Shown here piece after piece: positions 1 to 14,440 of a DNA stretch of 64,000 bases. Numbering within the stretch: position 1 is the first letter of the stretch; the number at the start of each line of letters is the position of its first letter. A model generated the notes under the pieces. It was not told where the DNA came from, did no database searches, and was given only the letters and a program-made list of their open reading frames with translations. A program made the translations under genes and the position numbers. The stretch is taken from the NCBI RefSeq assembly GCF_004786035.1, contig NZ_CP035088.1, positions 5,034,001 through 5,098,000 on the forward strand, read 5' to 3'. The stretch is from Pseudomonas viciae. Lineage in GTDB: Bacteria; Pseudomonadota; Gammaproteobacteria; Pseudomonadales; Pseudomonadaceae.

Positions 1-1435
1 TCGTCATCCACATCTCCGACAAGCTCGCGCTGATTCGCTTGCCACGATTGAACGCGATCAAATAGTCGAGGGCCCCCGCGACCTGCTTGAACTCGGTAAC
101 GTCGGTCCGGTAGAGCAGCGTTTTGATCTGAATCCAATCCCTGCCAGGGTCACCGGTAAGCACCAAATCAGCAGCGCCATTGATGAGTGCTTCAGCACTC
201 CTCGCGAGATTGGTCTTCGGGGGCTTACCCTCTGCTATGCTGGCGCTCCACTTCAAGTAGGTTGCTGCCTCCTTGATCGCCGTCGCACTGCCATCTGCGC
301 GCCTGATCGAGGCGAGCAATTTAAGACAGGCTGCGATATCAGCTGCACGCCGTTCAGGAAGCTTGGGCTCCAGCAGGAATGCTGCCAATCTGGCCGACAG
401 CAGAACTGCGGCCTCGTCGAACAACACTTTGTGAGGAATGGGCTTCGCCCCTCCGTTCAAGGCAGCTGAAATTTTGGCGACGCCACTGCCGGTTGTTGCG
501 AGGATGACCAAGTTTTCCAATTCCAGACCGTCAGCTTTAGCACCACTGAAAAATCGACCGAGCGCCACACGCATCCACTGGGCAGGATCGTTTCTGGGGT
601 CATACAGAATGCGACCAACACCGGCATACGGGGCTCTTCTCGGCGTATTCGCCAGGACGTCATTGCCGAAAACAGCGATTTCAGTGCCAGGGCTGCGGTT
701 GTTGTCGGAGCCGAGATCCACCAAAACAGGAGTTAAGGCGTCTTTGATATGCTCGATTCGCTCCGGACCTACACCCTCCAAGTGGTCAAAAATCTGCTGA
801 TCAAGATCAGCCAGGCAAATGATTTGGCAGAGGTCGGCCAGCTTCTCGATGCAGCCCCAAGCCGCATTCCCAGTGTCTTGAGCTTCATCAACAATGATCA
901 CAGGGTGAGTGTCTGCCACCAGTTCCCGGAGCAACTGACACCTTTCGAGCAGCTCACTGGACTTAGGAGCAAACCAGTCAAAACAGATTTGTCCCTCTTC
1001 CGCGAACAATCGCTCCCGCTCGGCTTGCCACGCGAGCCACTCGGCCGTCCCCTGCTCTCCTTTCTTCGGCGCTTTTAATCCACCGGACAAGGCCCTTTCA
1101 TCTTGAGGTAGCAGGATCTTGAGCTTTCCCTTCGGTGAACCAAGCAGGTAGCCATGGCTTTTGAGCAGTGACCAGCAGAAGGAATGGAAGGTCTGGAGAC
1201 TGAGCTGCGAACGTACCGTCTTATCGACCAGCAGACTCGACGCCTCTGCAACCCTAGCCACGGCTGCGCGAGAAAAACTGAGGAAGAGTATTGACTGCCC
1301 CGGCTGCAACCCAGCAGCAATAATCTTCGTGGCTTTCTGAAGGGCGATAGTGGTCTTCCCGCTGCCAGGCCCTCCAACAATCAGGAGGTGGGCATCCTCG
1401 TCCAGAATCGTCTGACGCCGCTCGCAGATGATCAT
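1..1435 (-). CDS. gajB: Gabija protein GajB-like UvrD/PcrA-type helicase (3' end outside window)
   Basis: Reading leftward from ATG at 1435, the frame is open to the window edge (about 478 codons; the known Bacillus GajB is about 494, so little is missing). Superfamily 1 helicase features are seen: Walker A GGPGSGKTT at residues 21-29, a motif Ia-like stretch LFLSFSRAAVARV near 50-62, and Walker B/motif II IIVDEAQD near 180-187. The start codon overlaps the gajA stop as ATGA, so the two genes are translationally coupled. UvrD-like helicases coupled to class 2 OLD nucleases are the Gabija anti-phage arrangement: GajA cuts DNA and GajB is thought to sense or unwind DNA ends and control it. The Gabija name rests on domain pair, order and sizes. 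A generic OLD/UvrD pair outside strict Gabija cannot be excluded. Confidence 0.8.
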   Translation of the reverse strand, partial: MIICERRQTILDEDAHLLIVGGPGSGKTTIALQKATKIIAAGLQPGQSILFLSFSRAAVARVAEASSLLVDKTVRSQLSLQTFHSFCWSLLKSHGYLLGSPKGKLKILLPQDERALSGGLKAPKKGEQGTAEWLAWQAERERLFAEEGQICFDWFAPKSSELLERCQLLRELVADTHPVIIVDEAQDTGNAAWGCIEKLADLCQIICLADLDQQIFDHLEGVGPERIEHIKDALTPVLVDLGSDNNRSPGTEIAVFGNDVLANTPRRAPYAGVGRILYDPRNDPAQWMRVALGRFFSGAKADGLELENLVILATTGSGVAKISAALNGGAKPIPHKVLFDEAAVLLSARLAAFLLEPKLPERRAADIAACLKLLASIRRADGSATAIKEAATYLKWSASIAEGKPPKTNLARSAEALINGAADLVLTGDPGRDWIQIKTLLYRTDVTEFKQVAGALDYLIAFNRGKRISASLSEMWMT

Positions 1436-3246: not shown

Positions 3247-3560
3247 TTCCGCAAATCCCTATGCCTGTTCGACACCTGAGCTTGGCTCATCCAGCCGACG
3301 CTGCATAGCCATTACTGCGGAAAAAATGGTCATCATGAGATTCATGATCAATTCATTCTGAAACGCTGCCTTACATGCTTTGAGTAGGTAGCAGGTGCCG
3401 CTCGTAACGTGATGGGATGCTCAGCTATATCCAAGCAGGCCTACAAGAGCCTCGCTTAGCGCTGGAGAAAATTACTCCACGATGCCAAAGTGACTTAGCA
3501 TCGGCTGATTTAATTATTGCCTTCCGTTCTTATATGCCCAGTGGGCCAAGGATGTCCTGC
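3247..3560. other. Divergent intergenic region between gajA and the TIR/SEFIR gene
   Basis: No convincing gene lies here. An in-frame extension of the TIR/SEFIR ORF runs back to an ATG at 3417, but that start lacks a clear ribosome site and its extra 48 residues look unlike a protein N-terminus of this family. The segment should hold the divergent promoters of the two defence units. I see no clear operator or terminator. Confidence 0.4.
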
Positions 3561-4472
3561 ATGTACAACCTGTTGATGACTGCTGGCGAAGATGACTGGA
3601 ACAATCCCACATGGACCATGAGTAGAGATCGATTTCTCGAACACACCGTGGCCGCGATCAGGGAAAGGTATCAAAACCTGAGCCCGGATGCCCTCCAACA
3701 CCTCAGGCAAATACCCACCCTATTTGCTTACGAAGAGTTTCGCAACCAGCCAGCACGGGTTGGCCGCGTTACAGAAATTCAGCAATTGCAGAATGCGCTT
3801 CGAATCACCCTGGCAATTGATCCGCACATTCCACCGATTCCACAGACGGTGTTTAGGACGATCTACGCAGACCTTGATATTAACACGCGTAATTTTGAGC
3901 ATAGCCGCACCCATTGGGCCCTCAAAGATGTAGATCTACCCAACGTCCTCGCAGCGCACAACCTATCGGGAACCGCACAACTGCTGCCGCAATCTAGGCC
4001 GCCGAAGGTTTTCGTCTCATACTCGTGGGATTCGCCAGAGCACCGCCAGTGGGTTGCTCACCTGGCCGCAACACTGCGCTCCAATGGGATAGATGCCATT
4101 CTCGATCAATGGCACGTTCGAGGCGGAGAGGACCTTGCAGCGTTCATGGACCGATCTCTTCGAGAAGCGGATCGTGTGTTGGTCATCTGTACAGACGGGT
4201 ACTACCAACGCGCAGTCGCGAGACAAGGTGGAGTGGGATATGAGCACTCCATGGTCACTGGGGAGTTGATGAGAAATGTGGGCTCCAACAAATTCATCCC
4301 GATAGTGCGTCAATCAGGGACCCAAACGCAGGTCCCCCCCGAGCTAAGTGGCCGGTTGCGATTTGATCTGGCTCCTGGCCCTAACTACCTCACGCATCTT
4401 GATGCCCTTATCAGAGACCTGCACAACGTTCCGACTCCGATTCCACCATTGGGGCAGAACCCATTCCTATAA
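3561..4472 (+). CDS. TIR/SEFIR-domain protein, probable anti-phage effector
   Basis: The C-terminal half (about residues 150-260 from this start) is a TIR/SEFIR fold. It opens with the beta-A motif KVFVSYSWDSPEHRQWV, continues with a GGEDLAAFMDRSLREADRVLV stretch split over helix C and beta D, and ends near GELM...FIPIVR. TIR domains in bacterial defence usually cleave NAD+ or make cADPR-like signals; SEFIR is a close relative. The N-terminal 140 residues (MYNLLMTAGEDDW at the start, later LFAYE and RVGRVTEIQ) form a second region I do not recognise by name, although it resembles N-termini of other SEFIR proteins. I chose ATG 3561 because AAGGA lies about 9 bases upstream; the longer ORF starts at 3417. 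It is a single gene, divergent from gajA, so it is probably an independent effector. The catalytic glutamate was not assigned. Confidence 0.7.
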   Translation: MYNLLMTAGEDDWNNPTWTMSRDRFLEHTVAAIRERYQNLSPDALQHLRQIPTLFAYEEFRNQPARVGRVTEIQQLQNALRITLAIDPHIPPIPQTVFRTIYADLDINTRNFEHSRTHWALKDVDLPNVLAAHNLSGTAQLLPQSRPPKVFVSYSWDSPEHRQWVAHLAATLRSNGIDAILDQWHVRGGEDLAAFMDRSLREADRVLVICTDGYYQRAVARQGGVGYEHSMVTGELMRNVGSNKFIPIVRQSGTQTQVPPELSGRLRFDLAPGPNYLTHLDALIRDLHNVPTPIPPLGQNPFL

Positions 4473-4787: not shown

Positions 4788-5465
4788 ATGTCAAGGATTG
4801 ATCTGAAGGTTCCGTTTTCACAGAAAGATGAAGCGAAATCACTGGGCGCTCGATGGGACCCAAGCCTGAAGACCTGGTATATCCCCGAGGGCGTCGCAAT
4901 AGGCCCCTTGGCCCGATGGCTGCCGGTGACAGAGCATTCAGACTTGGAGCACGGACCGGAATTTTGCGTCAGAGCGCCTTACTACTACGTCATGGAGTCA
5001 ATCTCCGACTGCTGGAGCTGCTCCAATTGGACCCGCGTATTTTCGTTCAAGCTGCCAGAAGAGCACGAAGAATTCGTGTACGCGGAAGATGAAGACGAAG
5101 GTTTCGCGCTCACGAGCAACCTCGGTGAGTGGAAGCGACATGGGTATCGTGGAACGGTCTCCAACGTGGACTGCCTCTCCCCGCAGGTCACGAAGCAGAT
5201 CCATCGCTTTACCAACAAGTTCAAGCACGCCTACAGCAAAACGGTTGGCAGCCGTTACCTGATGAATCACTGCGAACACTGCGGGGCAAAGCTCGGCGAT
5301 TTTTTCATGCACAGCGAACCTGGCGGGGCTTTTTTTCCGACCACACCAGACGAAGCTCAGCGGATGTCTCTTGTCAGAATCAACGAACGGTTCGATGCGA
5401 ACTGTAGCGTCGGCTTCGCCTCCGAAGACTTTTTCGACTGGATGCAGATTCGCGAGCAACCCTAA
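4788..5465 (+). CDS. DUF5710-domain protein with C-terminal cysteine motifs
   Basis: The first 35 residues (IDLKVPFSQKDEAKSLGARW then DPSLKTWYIP) match the DUF5710 pattern, a small domain common in plasmid and island proteins including primase-like ones. The rest of the 225 residues is not recognised. It has CWSC near residue 76 and HCEHCG near 160, which may bind a zinc ion, and an acidic stretch near 98-105. Flanks are 315 and 232 bp without genes, so it is probably monocistronic. The role is unknown; location between two defence-type units suggests cargo of the island. The domain call is fairly firm, the function open. Confidence 0.65.
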   Translation: MSRIDLKVPFSQKDEAKSLGARWDPSLKTWYIPEGVAIGPLARWLPVTEHSDLEHGPEFCVRAPYYYVMESISDCWSCSNWTRVFSFKLPEEHEEFVYAEDEDEGFALTSNLGEWKRHGYRGTVSNVDCLSPQVTKQIHRFTNKFKHAYSKTVGSRYLMNHCEHCGAKLGDFFMHSEPGGAFFPTTPDEAQRMSLVRINERFDANCSVGFASEDFFDWMQIREQP

Positions 5466-5697: not shown

Positions 5698-6858
5698 ATG
5701 GACGATCAGACACACAGTTCACCTGATGCTAATACAGATGCAGAGATTAAAAGCTCTGAGGTGAAATCGCTTGTTGTGTTGAACGCATGTGCCGCGAAGT
5801 TTTTCAAGAAAAAACTCGGCGGCCTATCGTTCTACGATAGTAATAAAGGCAGCGACTGGGACCTAGCGTCCCCAGTATGTGTTGACTTCGTCAATCTCAT
5901 TGGCAAGAAGTTTTCCAGAAGCGGAAGGATCTACGGATACGTGGACCCGAACATGCTCGCTGCTGCCGATAATTTCTCAAAATATTCTAGCAACCTCGAT
6001 TTCCACGCGCTTGTCACTGGCGTTATGGAACGGCTGTGCCACGAGGCAAACGACCCGGCACGTCGCTCTCTCAATGAGGGTTACGTTGTATTTTCACACT
6101 ATCAAGACTACCGACAGGTCGATCACCTCTTGATTGTCATGCTTGGCAAAAAAGGCGGATATGATTTTGACGATGACACCAACCTTAATCCGAAAGGTAC
6201 GGAAAGTCTGAACCTTCAAGATTTCCGCCAAGCCTCTTGCATGGACCTGACGGAATTCAGAAAAGGCTTCCCCGAAAATACAGGTGATTCCTACCTCTAT
6301 TTTATTAAAGGAAATTCTAAAAGCGAATTCTTCAACGTTGCACTGGGTTGCTCTGATTCAATGCCAGGAAAAGTCTGCGTTGACAACCTAAAAAACGCTC
6401 TGGGTGCATACCTTACTGACGAAGCAGGTGATCTGCCCTCCTCGGAACGGCGCACAATTCACAATCGCGTCGTTAACTATATCGAAAGCAAAGCAGGCGA
6501 ACGTGTACACCTTTCCGAAATCCAGCACGTTATCAACAAATGCCTGCAACCAGGCTCGCCTCACCTTGGCGGCCTCATGAAATTTATCTCAGAAAACTCT
6601 GAGCGCTTTAAGGTGAGCGAAGAATTCCAGCCCTCTGGTGTCGCTGCTAAAAGCATGGGATATGTAGATGTTAAGCTGCCGTCCGGAGAGTTCGCGGGGC
6701 GCTTGAAACTAGACGCCGTGGCCGTTGGTGACAGCACTGCCGACCTTAGCGTCGACAAGGACTTCGTGTACCTAAAGGTGAAGCTCCCAAGCGACGTATC
6801 AAACAGGCTTAAGGGCATAAATGCTGAGGATCCATCGTCAGGATCCCAAGATGCTTGA
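5698..6858 (+). CDS. NdpA/YejK-like nucleoid-associated protein (NA37 family)
   Basis: At 386 residues this has the size and layout of the 37-kDa nucleoid-associated family. It contains the family-like segment DHLLIVMLGKKGGYDFDDD (about 142-160), followed by LNLQDFRQASCMDLTEFRK (about 172-190), corresponding to the conserved sheet and the aromatic/polar stretch after it. The housekeeping YejK binds double-stranded DNA in the nucleoid. This copy lies in the island, has modest GC and overlaps the next gene, a membrane protein, by up to 38 bp, so it is not the core copy. The first 23 residues are polar and likely disordered. It probably binds DNA and partners with the membrane protein; this is inference from coupling. 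Confidence 0.75.
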   Translation: MDDQTHSSPDANTDAEIKSSEVKSLVVLNACAAKFFKKKLGGLSFYDSNKGSDWDLASPVCVDFVNLIGKKFSRSGRIYGYVDPNMLAAADNFSKYSSNLDFHALVTGVMERLCHEANDPARRSLNEGYVVFSHYQDYRQVDHLLIVMLGKKGGYDFDDDTNLNPKGTESLNLQDFRQASCMDLTEFRKGFPENTGDSYLYFIKGNSKSEFFNVALGCSDSMPGKVCVDNLKNALGAYLTDEAGDLPSSERRTIHNRVVNYIESKAGERVHLSEIQHVINKCLQPGSPHLGGLMKFISENSERFKVSEEFQPSGVAAKSMGYVDVKLPSGEFAGRLKLDAVAVGDSTADLSVDKDFVYLKVKLPSDVSNRLKGINAEDPSSGSQDA

Positions 6859-7978
6859 TCGTATCTCGTTGGATGATGATCAGCTCATATTCGATACGGA
6901 GTCGCTGGATATAAAGGACGCCCATGAGTTCCTCAAAACTTATGGCTGCCACAGTCCTGACAATCTGGATCTGATTGGGCATGAGCTTTTCCTGCTGAAG
7001 CCCTCAGCATGGGACGAGGGCTACGTGCCCTTCTTTGCCAACGCCGAGGCAATGTGGCATGCGCTACGAACGCGCAGCGCAAAGCCTGGACACGTGCAAA
7101 TCATCGGCATGAACGAGGATCAGCATGCGTCGGTTTCCCGACTGTTAGACCTGTACTTTTTAGTTAGAGAAACACTCAAAACGCTTTGCCATAGCGAAGG
7201 CGACGACAGCCAGATCCTCAAGTATATTTTCTTCAGCTCTAAAGAGTCACTTCTTACAAAGCTGGAAGTCTCGTACCTGATGGCATGCGATGAGCTAATG
7301 GCCATCAAAGTCGACGAAAAAGGCATGAAGCACGCTCAAACGATGCATGCAGCTGTGATGGCAGACGAGGACGTTCACTGCGAAGAAAGACGTCACGTTA
7401 TGCGAGAAACGCTGACGGAATTCTTGAAGGATGAGAAAGACTACAACATCCGCATGATAATGGTGTCCATCTCGACCTTCTACAAGAAATACAATGAGCG
7501 CTATAAGGTTTATGTAAGCAAATTCTCAGTCAACAAAATTCTCACTGAGATTGAAAGTGATTGCGTTAGTTTTTTAGGTAAGGTCCAAGAAGCCATCATG
7601 GCCCAGCAGACGAAGGCGTTTGCTGTGCCAGGTGGCATAGTGGCAGCTGGTGCTATTTTAAAACCTGCTACGACCGCATGGGATTATCTCGTCATACTCG
7701 TGGGGCTGATCATTTCAACCTGGATGATCACTTCGTTAAACAACAACGTAATCAGCCACATCAACCTGCTTGCAGAGGAGTTCGAGCGCTCCACCAAAAA
7801 GTACGATGACATCGTCGTGGGCGTAGAAGAGATTCAAGAAAAAATTGAAGACTCACGAATAAAGCTTTCAACTTCGTCTAAGTCCGCCAACTCCAAGCTT
7901 AACGGGCTAACCCGCGTATGCTGGCTAATATTCATACTGGTAAGCCTGATTTTGCTCAAACGCTTCTTGGAAACGTGA
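6821..7978 (+). CDS. Membrane protein coupled to the NdpA-like gene, unknown family
   Basis: I do not recognise this 385-residue protein. The N-terminal 260 residues are soluble and charged. Two hydrophobic segments follow, AFAVPGGIVAAGAIL (about 264-278) and YLVILVGLIISTWMI (about 287-301), then about 60 residues of likely coiled coil (KKYDDIVVGVEEIQEKIEDS) and a last membrane helix, VCWLIFILVSLILL, near the C-terminus. This suggests a large cytoplasmic part anchored by a hairpin and a terminal helix. Two starts are possible: ATG 6821 (TAAGGG upstream) and ATG 6851 (AGGA upstream, 8-bp overlap with the previous stop). In both cases it is coupled to the NdpA-like gene. By analogy with other defence pairs it could be the membrane effector of a DNA-sensing module; that is inference only. 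Confidence 0.6.
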   Translation: MLRIHRQDPKMLDRISLDDDQLIFDTESLDIKDAHEFLKTYGCHSPDNLDLIGHELFLLKPSAWDEGYVPFFANAEAMWHALRTRSAKPGHVQIIGMNEDQHASVSRLLDLYFLVRETLKTLCHSEGDDSQILKYIFFSSKESLLTKLEVSYLMACDELMAIKVDEKGMKHAQTMHAAVMADEDVHCEERRHVMRETLTEFLKDEKDYNIRMIMVSISTFYKKYNERYKVYVSKFSVNKILTEIESDCVSFLGKVQEAIMAQQTKAFAVPGGIVAAGAILKPATTAWDYLVILVGLIISTWMITSLNNNVISHINLLAEEFERSTKKYDDIVVGVEEIQEKIEDSRIKLSTSSKSANSKLNGLTRVCWLIFILVSLILLKRFLET

Positions 7979-8232: not shown

Positions 8233-8856
8233 TTAGGGCAACCCAACCTGCGGCATGTAAGCCTTGGGCACAGGCCATGGGACGCCGACCTCTAGTGCAT
8301 CTAACAAATCCGCCCAATATTGCATCATCCTACGTCTCGGCTCGACGTATTCCGCATGGTTGTTCGCATCAGCGTGCGAAAGCTGCGCCTCAATCCATTC
8401 TTCGACAAAACCAACCTCGTTGAGCGCCGTTGAGATGGTGGCCCTGATGCCATGACCGGTGAGCCTCCCTTTGTAACCCATCCGGCTAATGGCGGTGTTA
8501 AGGGTATTTTCACTGATCATTTCCTGCGGTTTGAATCGGTGAACCAGCAGATACTGCACCGCGCCCCCTTAACCGCATCAGCCGCTGCACAATTGCAATC
8601 GCTTGAGCAGAAAGCGGAATCACATAAGGTGGGATCTCATTCCCCTGTGTTCGCACACGACTCCGGAGTTGCTTCACACCCTCCGGCGGCACCAGCCAGA
8701 CCCCCTTGTCGAAGTCGAATTAGTCTGGCGTCGCCGCCCGTAGCTCTCCTGTGCGCACGCCCGTCAGCAGCAATAGACGAATGCCAATGCCAGCGCTTCG
8801 AACCAGTCGTATGCACCTGCAGAGATAAGCCATTCCTATCAGTTAACGTATAAGGA
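8233..8856 (-). pseudogene. Decayed tyrosine integrase, near-identical remnant of the 11.6-12.9 kb integrase
   Basis: The stretch aligns almost base for base with parts of the intact integrase at 11641-12954, in the same orientation. Four lesions are visible. About 585 bp of the N-terminal and central part are missing, with the junction near 8781-8785. A TAA stop at 8720-8722 replaces the codon of Gln256. A 2-bp deletion near 8557 (GTGC region in the intact copy) shifts the frame. An 18-bp deletion near 8362 removes six residues, QIRATY, which include the presumed catalytic tyrosine. The C-terminal tail also diverges. It cannot make an active recombinase and marks an older or recombined island end. 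Confidence 0.85.
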
Positions 8857-8929: not shown

Positions 8930-9805
8930 TTAAATTGATGTTGCTGCCAAGCGCCTGAACTCCCTCGGCGAACGATAGTTCAAGGCGCTGTGCGGATGCT
9001 GCTCGTTGTAATGCTCGAAGGCAATCGCCAGGTTACGCAGCGCCGTTTCCCGATCCGGCTTGGGCATGTGCGCCACGTAATCACGTTTGATCGTCTTCAC
9101 GAAGCTCTCTGCCATGCCGTTGCTCTGCGGGCTACGCACAGGCGTGGTCACCGTCTGCAAACCGATCTGTCGAGCAAACAGGCGCGTCTGTTCGGCGGTG
9201 TAGGCCGAACCGTTATCGCTGAGCCATTGCACCGGCGTGGCGGGCAGCTGATCACCGAAACGCTTCTCCACGCTTTCCAGCATCAAGTCGCGAATATCAT
9301 CGCCGCTGTAACCGGTCGGGCTCGCGACCCAGCCGATGGCTTCGCGATCGCAGCAATCGAGGGCGAAGGTCACGCTCAGTTTGGCGCCGTCCTCACAACG
9401 GAATTCAAAGCCGTCCGAGCACCAACGCGTATCGCTGGTTTGCACCGCAATACGGCCTTCGTGCCGACGCGGCACGCCGGGTTGTTTGATCCGGCGTTCA
9501 AGCAACAGGTTGTGATCACGCATCACCCGGTAAACCCGCTTCACGTTGACCGCGGGTAGCAACTGGGCTTCACGGGCACGACGCAGCAACCCCCAGACTC
9601 GACGGTAGCCATAGCTGGGCAGTTCGCTGACCTGTTGCTGGATTTCGGCCACCAACTCAACGTCGTTCACAGGCCTGCTTCGCCGTGTCTTGGGCGATAC
9701 CGATTGCTTGATTCGAACCGTTAATTGCGAGCGCGCCACACCGAGACATTCGCTGACCAGCTTCACTGGTCGTCCCCCGGCAACAAGGGTGAGTGCGCAA
9801 TCCAT
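8930..9805 (-). CDS. IS2-group transposase OrfB (DDE integrase domain)
   Basis: The 291-residue product closely follows the InsD protein of IS2. It has an N-terminal HTH_21-like segment with [15 protein letters not shown], then the rve catalytic core: first Asp in [10 protein letters not shown] (about 128), [13 protein letters not shown], second Asp in WLSDNGSAY (about 196), and Glu in [16 protein letters not shown] (about 232). The C-terminus [19 protein letters not shown] is typical. In this family the active transposase is OrfAB made by programmed frameshifting in the orfA/orfB overlap; the overlap here is 43 bp. No truncation is visible. Confidence 0.92.
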
Positions 9806-10155
9806 TTTCGCGACCGGGCGATCTCCACGGCTTCTTTGAGGATCTCCGCTTCCATCGTTTTCTTGCCCAGCATCCGTTGCAGTTCACGGATCTGCTTGAG
9901 CGCATCGCTCAACTCGGAGGCAGGCACCACGGCTTCGCCCGCGCTGACCGCCGACAGGCTGCCGTCCTGGTAAAGCTTGCGCCACTGGAACAGCTGGTTG
10001 GCATTGATGCCGTTGCGCCGAGCCACCACCGAAACGCTTTGCCCTGGCTCAAGGCTCTCGCGAACCATGGCCAGCTTTTGCTCTGGACTCCAGCGGCGCC
10101 GCCGCTCCTGGCCCAAAAGCTCCCCACTCTTATCGTTGCTGTTAGTCATAAACAT
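9763..10155 (-). CDS. IS2-group OrfA (helix-turn-helix, InsC-like)
   Basis: This 130-residue protein has the [20 protein letters not shown] opening and helix-turn-helix ([20 protein letters not shown], about 40-59) of IS3-family OrfA. A leucine-zipper-like region follows ([20 protein letters not shown], about 86-105), used for dimerisation. It binds the IS ends and supplies the N-terminal part of the fused OrfAB transposase. A run of A residues in the LGKK codons is a possible slippage site. It starts 64 bp inside the right end, as expected for the promoter-proximal gene. Confidence 0.9.
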
Positions 10156-10261
10156 AACCGTTTGCCTATCCCTTATCGTAAGGAGGAAACGGTGTCCTGT
10201 CTTTCATGGGGCTCGTTCAAATTACAAAGAGGCACTCATTGAAAAACCTTCTTGACGACGA

Positions 10262-10927
10262 ATGAACACGCATGATCAATGTAATCAAAAGGTAATCCTG
10301 GAGAGAGAACCCGTGGAATCCCTAAACCCAACACAGCGCCGCATTCATCAAGCCGCCTTTCGCCTGTTCGCTGAGAGAGGTACATCACAAGTGAACATCC
10401 TCGACCTCGCGCAAGAGGCAGGAGTGGCGCGCGGAACGATCTATAGCAACATCGACAGTATGGAAAGCCTGTTCGAGGCGGTCGCTAGTCATCTCGCGAG
10501 AGAGATGTATGAGCGCATCAACAAGAGCTTCGATTCACTGACCGATCCGGCTCAGCGCCTTGCCAATGGCATTCGTCTCTTCATTCGTCGAGCTCACGAA
10601 GACTCCCAGTGGGGGGCATTCATACACAAGTTCGCCATGAGCAATTCTGCATTGCGCGAAATGTTCAGCAGCCAGGCGTCCACGGATCTTCGGAGCGGGC
10701 TTTCAGGTGGGCGGTACACGTTTCAGCAAGAACAATTGCTCTCAGTACTGACGCTGATATCGAGCAGTGTTCTCGGCTCGATTTTCCTCGTAATTGAAGG
10801 TCATAGGACGTGGCGCGACTCCGGCTCTGACACCGCCGAGCTGTTGCTGCGGGCATTGGGTGTGCCGCCAGAGGAGGCGCGTGCGTTGGCGACCATAGAG
10901 CTGCCGACACTTCCGCCTCTCGACTGA
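10262..10927 (+). CDS. TetR/AcrR-family transcriptional regulator
   Basis: A TetR N-terminal domain is clear: IHQAAFRLFAERGTSQVNIL then LAQEAGVARGTIYSNIDSME (about 28-68). The ligand domain of about 150 residues is not assignable. The ATG at 10262 has a weak ribosome site; a GTG at 10313 follows GGAGAGAGAACCC and may be the true start (204 residues). The IS right end lies only 37 bp before the ATG, so the native promoter has probably been separated or replaced by the IS. No target gene is adjacent, as the DNA on its left is mobile and the next 700 bp hold no clear gene. Confidence 0.75.
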   Translation: MNTHDQCNQKVILEREPVESLNPTQRRIHQAAFRLFAERGTSQVNILDLAQEAGVARGTIYSNIDSMESLFEAVASHLAREMYERINKSFDSLTDPAQRLANGIRLFIRRAHEDSQWGAFIHKFAMSNSALREMFSSQASTDLRSGLSGGRYTFQQEQLLSVLTLISSSVLGSIFLVIEGHRTWRDSGSDTAELLLRALGVPPEEARALATIELPTLPPLD

Positions 10928-11640: not shown

Positions 11641-12954
11641 CTAATCAGCAGATACCCGCTGCGCGCTCAGAAAATCCGTTGAAGGTCGCCTGATTTTCGG
11701 CATGTAGGCTTCAGGCGTAGGCGGCGGAACGCCGACCTCTAGTGCATCTAACAAATCCGCCCAATATTGCATCATCCTACGTCTCGGCTCGACGTATTCC
11801 GCATGGTTGTACGTAGCGCGAATTTGGTTGGCATCAGCGTGCGAAAGCTGCGCCTCAATCCATTCTTCGACAAAACCGACCTCGTTGAGCGCCGTTGAGA
11901 TGGTGGCCCTGATGCCATGACCGGTGAGCCTCCCTTTGTAACCCATCCGGCTAATGGCGGTGTTAAGTGTATTTTCACTGATCATTTCCTGCGGTTCGTA
12001 TCGGTGAACCAGCAGATACCGTGCACCGCGCCCCCTTAACTGCATCAGCCGCTGCACAATTGCAATCGCTTGAGTAGATAGCGGAATCACATAAGGTGGA
12101 ATCTCATTCCCCTGTGTTCGCACACGACTCCGGAGCTGCTTCACACCCTCCGGCGGCACCAGCCAGATCCCCTTATCGAAGTCGAATTGGTCTGGCGTCG
12201 CCGCCCGTAGCTCTCCTGTACGCACGCCCGTCAGAAGCAATAGACGAATACCAAGCCGTGTCTTTTCTGCACACTCATAGTGGGTGACGGTTCTGAGCAA
12301 TCCTGGAAGTTCATTAACTTGGAGGAAGGGATTATGGCGGACCGGCCGCGGCGTCTCGGCAACGATATCAAGATCTGCTGCTGGGTTCACATCAATAAGC
12401 CCTTCCGCCATAGCAAAACGAAAGATCTGGTTGAGCCAGGTCCGCACCTTTCGAGCAGACACCAGCGCGCCTCTGCGCTCAATTCGTCGAATGAGCTCCA
12501 GCACGTCGCCACGAGAAATATCCGCGATCGGAAGATCGCCCAAACACGGCAGCATGTCCTTCTTCAGGTATTTGCTGGCTTGCCCCGCACTGCCCTTCTT
12601 GCTTTTCGTCAGTTTTTTACTGCGGAACTCATGCCAACGATCAGCAACCGCTTCAAACGTGTTGTTGGCGGCGTGAGAGGCTTTCTGCCTCTCGGCACGA
12701 CGATGCGATCGAGGATCGATATTGTTGGCCACCAGCGCACGTGCAGCCTCTCTCCGCTGACGAGCCTCCTTTAGACTCACGTCGGGATAGATGCCGAGGG
12801 AAATACGCAATTGCTTGTCATGCCAATAGAAACGGAAATGCCAACGCTTCGAACCCGTCGGGGGCACTTGCAGAGATAAGCCATCCCCATCAGTTAACGT
12901 ATAAGGCTTGGTGGCGGGCTTGGCTTGCTTGATCGCTGTATCTTTCAGAGCCAT
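11641..12954 (-). CDS. P4-type tyrosine integrase of the tRNA-Asp island
   Basis: The 437-residue protein has the P4-integrase layout. An Arm/DUF4102 DNA-binding domain comes first (MALKDTAIKQAKPATKPYTL, about 1-90), then a SAM-like core-binding domain (about 100-200) and the catalytic domain. The catalytic set is visible: Arg245 in TGVRTGEL, His346 and Arg349 in GHGIRA, His372 in QLSHAD and the likely nucleophile Tyr382 in RATYNHAEY. It starts about 235 bp from the 3' end of tRNA-Asp and reads away from it, as usual for islands inserted in tRNA 3' ends. It should excise and integrate the island that extends left beyond the window. Confidence 0.92.
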   Translation of the reverse strand: MALKDTAIKQAKPATKPYTLTDGDGLSLQVPPTGSKRWHFRFYWHDKQLRISLGIYPDVSLKEARQRREAARALVANNIDPRSHRRAERQKASHAANNTFEAVADRWHEFRSKKLTKSKKGSAGQASKYLKKDMLPCLGDLPIADISRGDVLELIRRIERRGALVSARKVRTWLNQIFRFAMAEGLIDVNPAADLDIVAETPRPVRHNPFLQVNELPGLLRTVTHYECAEKTRLGIRLLLLTGVRTGELRAATPDQFDFDKGIWLVPPEGVKQLRSRVRTQGNEIPPYVIPLSTQAIAIVQRLMQLRGRGARYLLVHRYEPQEMISENTLNTAISRMGYKGRLTGHGIRATISTALNEVGFVEEWIEAQLSHADANQIRATYNHAEYVEPRRRMMQYWADLLDALEVGVPPPTPEAYMPKIRRPSTDFLSAQRVSAD

Positions 12955-13360: not shown

Positions 13361-13519
13361 TTCGCTTTCGGTGTGGCGCGCATTCTACGGAGCACTCCCA
13401 AAGCTGGCAAGCACTTTTTAAATTAATTTTTTCAGGCCTTCCAAAGGCTTAGCGAAGGGTTGGCCTATGGCGCTGCGAAGAGAATAATGCCCCCTTTGTA
13501 TAAAGGAGAGACTCACCCC

Positions 13520-14440
13520 ATGTGGTTCAAAAACCTGCTTATCTATCGCCTGACCCAAGATCTGCCTTTTGATGCCGAGGCGTTGGAAACTGCACTGGCC
13601 AGCAAACTGGCGCGTCCATGTGCAAGCCAGGAGTTGACCACTTACGGTTTCGTCGCGCCGTTTGGCAAAGGCGAAGACGCCCCCCTGGTGCATATCAGCC
13701 AGGACTTCCTGCTGATCGCCGCGCGCAAGGAGGAACGCATATTGCCTGGCAGCGTCGTACGCGATGCCCTGAAGGAAAAGGTCGAAGAGATCGAAGCCGA
13801 GCAAATGCGCAAGGTCTATAAAAAGGAACGAGACCAGCTCAAGGATGAAATCATCCAGGCGTTCCTGCCGCGTGCGTTCATTCGTCGCTCGTCCACCTTC
13901 GCCGCCATCGCGCCGAAACAGGGCCTGATTCTGGTGAACTCCGCCAGCCCGAAACGCGCCGAAGACCTGCTGTCGACCCTGCGCGAAGTCATCGGCTCGC
14001 TGCCAGTGCGCCCACTGACAGTCAAAATGGCCCCGAGCGCCACCATGACCGACTGGGTCAAGACCCAGAAAGCCGCGGACGACTTCTTCGTGCTGGACGA
14101 ATGCGAACTGCGCGACACCCACGAAGACGGCGGCATCGTGCGCTGCAAGCGCCAGGACCTGACCAGCGACGAAATCCAGCTGCACCTGAACACCGGCAAG
14201 GTGGTGACGCAATTGTCGCTGGCCTGGCAGGACAAGCTGTCCTTCGTGCTCGACGACAAAATGGTGGTCAAGCGCCTGAAGTTCGAAGACTTGTTGCAGG
14301 ACCAGGCGGAACAGGACGGTGGCGACGAAGCCCTCGGCCAACTGGACGCCAGCTTCACCCTGATGATGCTGACGTTCGGCGAGTTCCTGCCAGCGCTGGT
14401 TGAGGCGTTGGGCGGGGAAGAGATTCCGCAGGGGATCTAA
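13520..14440 (+). CDS. rdgC: Recombination-associated protein RdgC
   Basis: The 306-residue product opens [20 protein letters not shown], as RdgC proteins do, and has the usual length. RdgC forms a ring-shaped dimer on double-stranded DNA and limits RecA activity. I chose ATG 13520, which follows AAAGGAGAG; an in-frame ATG at 13460 has no good ribosome site. The C-terminus EIPQGI is followed by a 45-bp tandem duplication of its own end. This is the first core gene right of the tRNA pair. Confidence 0.95.

Follow-up and report, generated by a model that had tools for sequence, protein, structure and literature searches.

The window analysed here, 64,000 nt of contig NZ_CP035088.1 of Pseudomonas viciae (positions 5,034,001 to 5,098,000), carries two overlapping genes, DS-1A and DS-1B, which by the NCBIfam equivalog models for both genes form a member of the named anti-phage system DS-1. 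At a probability of roughly one half, we propose that DS-1A senses phage DNA and would then activate the predicted membrane protein DS-1B, leading to membrane damage or growth arrest, as has been proposed for lambda RexAB. DS-1A (5698..6858, plus strand, 386 aa) lies directly upstream of DS-1B on the same strand and scores 403.9 bits on NF053868.1 (DS1_1_antiphage; cut-off 330), and DS-1B scores 349.6 bits on NF053869.1 (DS1_2_antiphage; cut-off 315), or 349.7 bits when the whole genome was searched. The initial annotation of this DNA had put forward an undescribed two-gene defence module and knew of no named system with this pair; a conserved anti-phage pair is supported, but we rejected an undescribed system because NCBIfam already names both genes as DS-1. 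The comparison with PADLOC that the annotation had called for was run, and no model in PADLOC-DB 2.0.0 (2023) matched DS-1A or DS-1B at E <= 0.1.

The text of the DefensePredictor paper (2026, Science) reports 94 predicted E. coli units cloned and assayed in MG1655, of which 42 were protective and received the name DS systems; the domains newly validated in anti-phage defence include, in its words, a "YejK nucleoid-associated domain" (PMC13092281). Joining the NCBIfam names with this text, it follows that DS-1 is the paper's YejK-domain system. Mutant data are given there for DS-2, 3, 5, 6, 8, 9 and 11, and we found no DS-1 mutant data or mechanism in the paper's text (PMC13092281); no other title on DS-1 mechanism was seen among those listed in literature searches, and a Providencia survey names DS-1 among its detected subtypes (PMC12935923). 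The divergent tier of related pairs, the position at antiterminator Q in E. coli and the YejK/CENP-N fold clue, all described below, go beyond the text on DS-1 that we found there.

A YejK-like protein paired with a predicted membrane protein

The NdpA-like identity first assigned to DS-1A proved sound, with residues 70-318 matching NA37 (PF04245; E 2.3e-21, 77 bits versus a cut-off of 24.6). By its AlphaFold2 model, DS-1A is predicted to share the full-length fold of YejK from E. coli (9be2), and a second, middling match is to CENP-N, a fold that RexA resembles. RexA and RdgC were absent among the matches listed in this fold search, and hhalign profile comparison gave a probability of 0.2 for NA37 with RexA and no match for NA37 with RdgC, although the control pair RexA-RdgC also failed to match. 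In alignment A7, the DS-1A proteins of E. coli (L007:3622-4797) and Paraglaciecola (L008:3782-4960) have a zinc-ribbon-like CxxC...CxxC stretch at the N terminus, and the other rows, the window's DS-1A among them, are without it.

DS-1A shares its family and full-length predicted fold with housekeeping YejK/NdpA, but is paired and additional to a resident copy: it scores 63.8 bits on the YejK equivalog NF001557.0, under the cut-off of 341, and NA37 is encoded separately, at full length, in its own genome (330.9 bits). We therefore rejected derivation of the pair from housekeeping NA37, and the earlier view that this coupling is not housekeeping is upheld. Across the family NA37 as such is nearly universal (98 of 99 genomes), but it is patchy beyond it, with 3 of 56 genomes in a class sample.

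The longest open reading frame (ORF) of the DS-1B gene spans 6821-7978 on the plus strand and encodes 385 aa, but the true start is most likely the second ATG, at 6851, which is common to 13 of 15 aligned homologues; of the other two, P0080 starts upstream of this position and the second begins six residues further in. Against this start, 4 of 79 homologues are predicted at 385-386 aa, matching the longest ORF, a length to be read in the knowledge that gene callers favour long ORFs. A start at 6851 gives DS-1B 375 residues (6851..7978, plus strand) and an overlap with DS-1A of 8 nt (ATGCTTGA, 6851..6858) instead of 38. Both ORFs of the initial annotation exist, then, with the second probably shorter and the overlap smaller.

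AlphaFold2 predicts for DS-1B (mean predicted local distance difference test score 79.7) an alpha/beta domain at residues 1-205 (6851..7465) followed by three long helices (207-269, 276-316 and 326-374). The model had no match at E <= 0.001 in PDB or BFVD, searches that barely probed residues 1-205, and its helical matches to alpha-pore toxins and CorA fall within the range for long-helix bundles. Conservation by region (alignment A3) is highest across the wider family in the long pre-membrane helix (residues 206-255, 7466..7615), which bears an FSVNK...EIE motif, together with residues 256-275. The membrane layout annotated earlier was borne out in part: the C-terminal segment (residues 349-375, 7895..7975) is strongly hydrophobic, with a peak Kyte-Doolittle value of 2.06, and residues 275-298 form a second clear segment (peak 1.81), but residues 256-274 stay under the threshold of 1.5. 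Because only these two segments are clear, we infer the first arm of the putative membrane hairpin (residues 256-298, 7616..7744), which contains a conserved P260.

Our best guess, by analogy, is a RexAB-like mechanism. DS-1A would bind DNA, as NA37 biology suggests; the trigger would be the invading phage DNA, either as such or through its topology or nucleoprotein state; the signal may run through the conserved pre-membrane helix of DS-1B; and the output would be membrane damage or growth arrest that stops the infected cell. The computed basis of this reading comprises the scores over both cut-offs, the adjacency and overlap of the genes, their conserved pairing, the YejK-like predicted fold, and the conjugation-type genes, Gabija and bSEFIR alongside. 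Like RexAB of lambda and RexABpp of P. putida (PP_5643-5644), DS-1 is a phage-borne pair of genes for a DNA-binding-type and a membrane protein, with a proposed sensor-effector logic. It differs in that DS-1A belongs to NA37 by sequence and showed no similarity to RexA, in a comparison whose RexA-RdgC control also fails, and in that DS-1B has 375 aa and a soluble alpha/beta domain, compared to 144 aa for lambda RexB; by size and domain, DS-1B is not a small membrane partner of the RexB type.

We consider it unlikely that DS-1A instead coats phage DNA while DS-1B fixes it to the inner membrane, so that this DNA could not be replicated, packaged or segregated and the cell would come to no harm. 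Such tethering would suit a nucleoid-type protein joined to a membrane protein with long helices, as well as the topoisomerase-inhibiting role reported for YejK. However, the best-conserved part of DS-1B sits at and just before the membrane, where it better suits signalling or gating, and no fold match supports an anchor.

The pairing is conserved in two tiers

We searched a genus sample of 398 genomes, own genome included, with the membrane-gene model (E <= 0.001) and obtained matches in 27 genomes at 33 places, with five genomes over the cut-off. Loci were available for 30 of the places and were examined; the three places without a locus were dropped. The co-occurrence check asked for in the initial annotation favours the pairing: an intact NA37 ORF was found directly upstream on the same strand in 26 of the 30 loci, including all five over the cut-off, with gaps that range, if first start codons are taken, from -56 to +6 nt. 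Three of the other four keep NA37 split or in fragments (L049, L055 and L068), and in the last (L066) NA37 is absent and the membrane gene itself is short (307 aa). The extended NA37 profile behind the count of 26 was built partly from ORFs that were later scored; the independent test, in which a profile built solely on the 17 DS-1A sequences in A2 was run on shorter loci, matched in 27 of 30. Several divergent loci are near-identical (L056, L057, L065 and L067, for example, agree in ORF lengths and share a profile score of 396.3), so the 30 loci do not represent 30 independent events. Outside the genus sample, an NA37 partner is present at L003, L004, L006, L007, L008 and L073, the partner at L074 is annotated 'nucleoid-associated protein', and the L005 locus is cut off.

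These loci also bear on a toxin-antitoxin-like role, in which DS-1B would be a membrane toxin restrained by DS-1A and the pair would stabilise its mobile element. The overlapping genes and their occurrence beside conjugation genes, in prophages and on a conjugative plasmid would fit such maintenance, but a full-length membrane gene (420 aa) persists beside the broken NA37 in L049, L055 and L068, as would not be expected of a toxin dependent on its antitoxin, barring sequencing errors. The NCBI family name is moreover anti-phage, and a YejK-domain system protected E. coli according to the DefensePredictor text, so that we hold maintenance to be very unlikely.

Besides the window pair and those closely related to it, DS-1 proper takes in one pair from an E. 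coli prophage (451.4 and 375.2 bits on the two DS-1 models) and one from a Paraglaciecola plasmid (401.3 and 361.1 bits); the close homologues that bear a name are from Pseudomonas. The window pair agrees with DS-1 in that each gene exceeds its curated cut-off and A precedes B on the same strand, and differs in lying beside conjugation genes where the E. coli copies lie in prophages. In a divergent tier the order of the genes is kept, but the scores fall well under both cut-offs, as in L048 (91.6 and 77.3 bits), L044 (105.5 and 98.9 bits) and the Klebsiella phage pair P7641 (86.8 and 103.2 bits), and PADLOC gave no match in any of the four divergent pairs tested. This tier is the commoner in the genus, with below-cut-off matches in 23 of 398 genomes versus 5 of 398 for DS-1 proper (one genome has both), and one of its pairs is also carried on a conjugative plasmid. 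A class sample of 369 genomes gave two matches, of which own genome alone exceeded the cut-off and the second (20 bits) looks by eye like a photolyase-type protein, so the pair family appears rare in the sampled genomes outside the genus. A third protein search scored the 7,998 candidates with most shared words, and a genome-contig scan, too narrow for counts, returned two loci.

Prophage and probable island settings of the pair

Of 5,426 complete E. coli genomes, 105 carry the pair by megablast, in 106 records and never below 99% identity, a search that divergent copies would escape; 105 of the 106 places are chromosomal. The pair overlaps the antiterminator Q gene in 20 of 20 rows listed from the 106 records. 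By annotation, two different E. coli prophages carry it between holin and Q on the opposite strand, the same placement recurs on a circular record with phage genes that is filed as a plasmid, and the Klebsiella phage pair is located close to an endolysin gene, likewise on the opposite strand. The holin-Q site is a cargo position and fits prophage-encoded exclusion. Among 72,556 plasmid records, the window's protein matches five and the divergent version five, and a scan of viral contigs gave two loci, one of them cut at the contig edge.

In P. viciae, TraU, TraG_N, ArdC and TraI_2-type genes lie to the left of the window and an integrase and tRNA-Asp/Val to the right of the pair, an arrangement that probably places the pair in the cargo of an island resembling an integrative and conjugative element. 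The Gabija and SEFIR neighbours reported at the outset are both there. GajA scores 719.5 bits in PADLOC, and GajB is an intact 587-aa UvrD-type ORF at -328..1435, running past the left edge of the window, which makes Gabija complete; its genes are on the opposite strand, separate and outside the pair. The bSEFIR protein (window 3417-4472) scores 221.2 bits in PADLOC, and Pfam gave no family for its N-terminal half, up to about residue 178.

Defence neighbours were also assignable in three of seven close-relative loci: the pair lies near a Ppl-like gene in L003, near TraG_N and AriA/AriB-like genes in L004 of P. gingeri, and near a NACHT-domain gene in L006, where 9325-10194 additionally matches PF05014. 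These tallies come from a greedy ORF picker and cover 101 ORFs of the seven DS-1 loci (pair included), compared to 10 hand-picked ORFs of nine divergent loci. PADLOC gives one RT_II-A and one NDT_II-A match among the 101, which we take to be retron II-A model names.

One result weighs against the view of a defence island. The 10 ORFs beside the nine divergent loci yielded no defence system and include accessory genes such as OprD, ArsB, Fic and one for a phage tail protein, so the defence setting first described holds for the window and the three relatives but not for these 10 ORFs of the divergent tier. Neither the window's DS-1B nor the E. coli version had a tblastn match in 50,697 phage records, and the divergent version had three, all under 60% identity; this rarity weakens 'phage-borne' as a general statement. 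The same accessory genes would favour an element-borne regulator, in which DS-1A manages the topology or silencing of its element, DS-1B is an accessory and defence is a side effect. We judge this quite unlikely, because a YejK-domain system is reported in the DefensePredictor text as protective in E. coli, the window pair belongs to the family so named, and tight pairing with a membrane protein would be left unexplained.

Other features were seen around the pair. A DUF5710 protein flanks it both in the window (4788-5465, upstream) and in P. gingeri (L004:11195-11893, downstream). Just to its right the remains of a second island integrase gene (8251-8855) share blocks of 233, 207, 116 and 70 nt, 89-95% identical, with stretches (11698-12906) inside the intact gene (11641-12954), which suggests a tandem insertion of two elements at the tRNA locus. 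Between the integrase remnant and a TetR-type gene (10262-10927), two overlapping ORFs (8930-10155) resemble, by eye, an IS3-type transposase pair. The core gene adjoining the island is rdgC (13460-14437), whose product is described as structurally homologous to phage RexA (PMC11077077); its presence there is probably a coincidence of the insertion site.

Reach of the DS-1 family

More tentatively, and with rather less confidence than the mechanism itself, DS-1 may be a second invention of the RexAB plan, in which an NA37 clamp of the RexA/RdgC/CENP-N/CENP-L fold class would drive a membrane effector. It would have spread as prophage cargo at the Q-lysis region and on conjugative islands, with a larger unlabelled family (23 of 398 genus genomes, a plasmid and a Klebsiella phage) lying below the DS-1 cut-offs and matching no PADLOC-DB 2.0.0 model. 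Conserved pairing, the E. coli prophage position and the fold clue together make the RexAB-like hypothesis direct and testable, and the divergent tier suggests that the DS-1 family is larger than its curated models. The pair is ordinary in identity and of interest for its reach: a RexAB-like mechanism is plausible, and behind the pair stands a larger family that carries no label.
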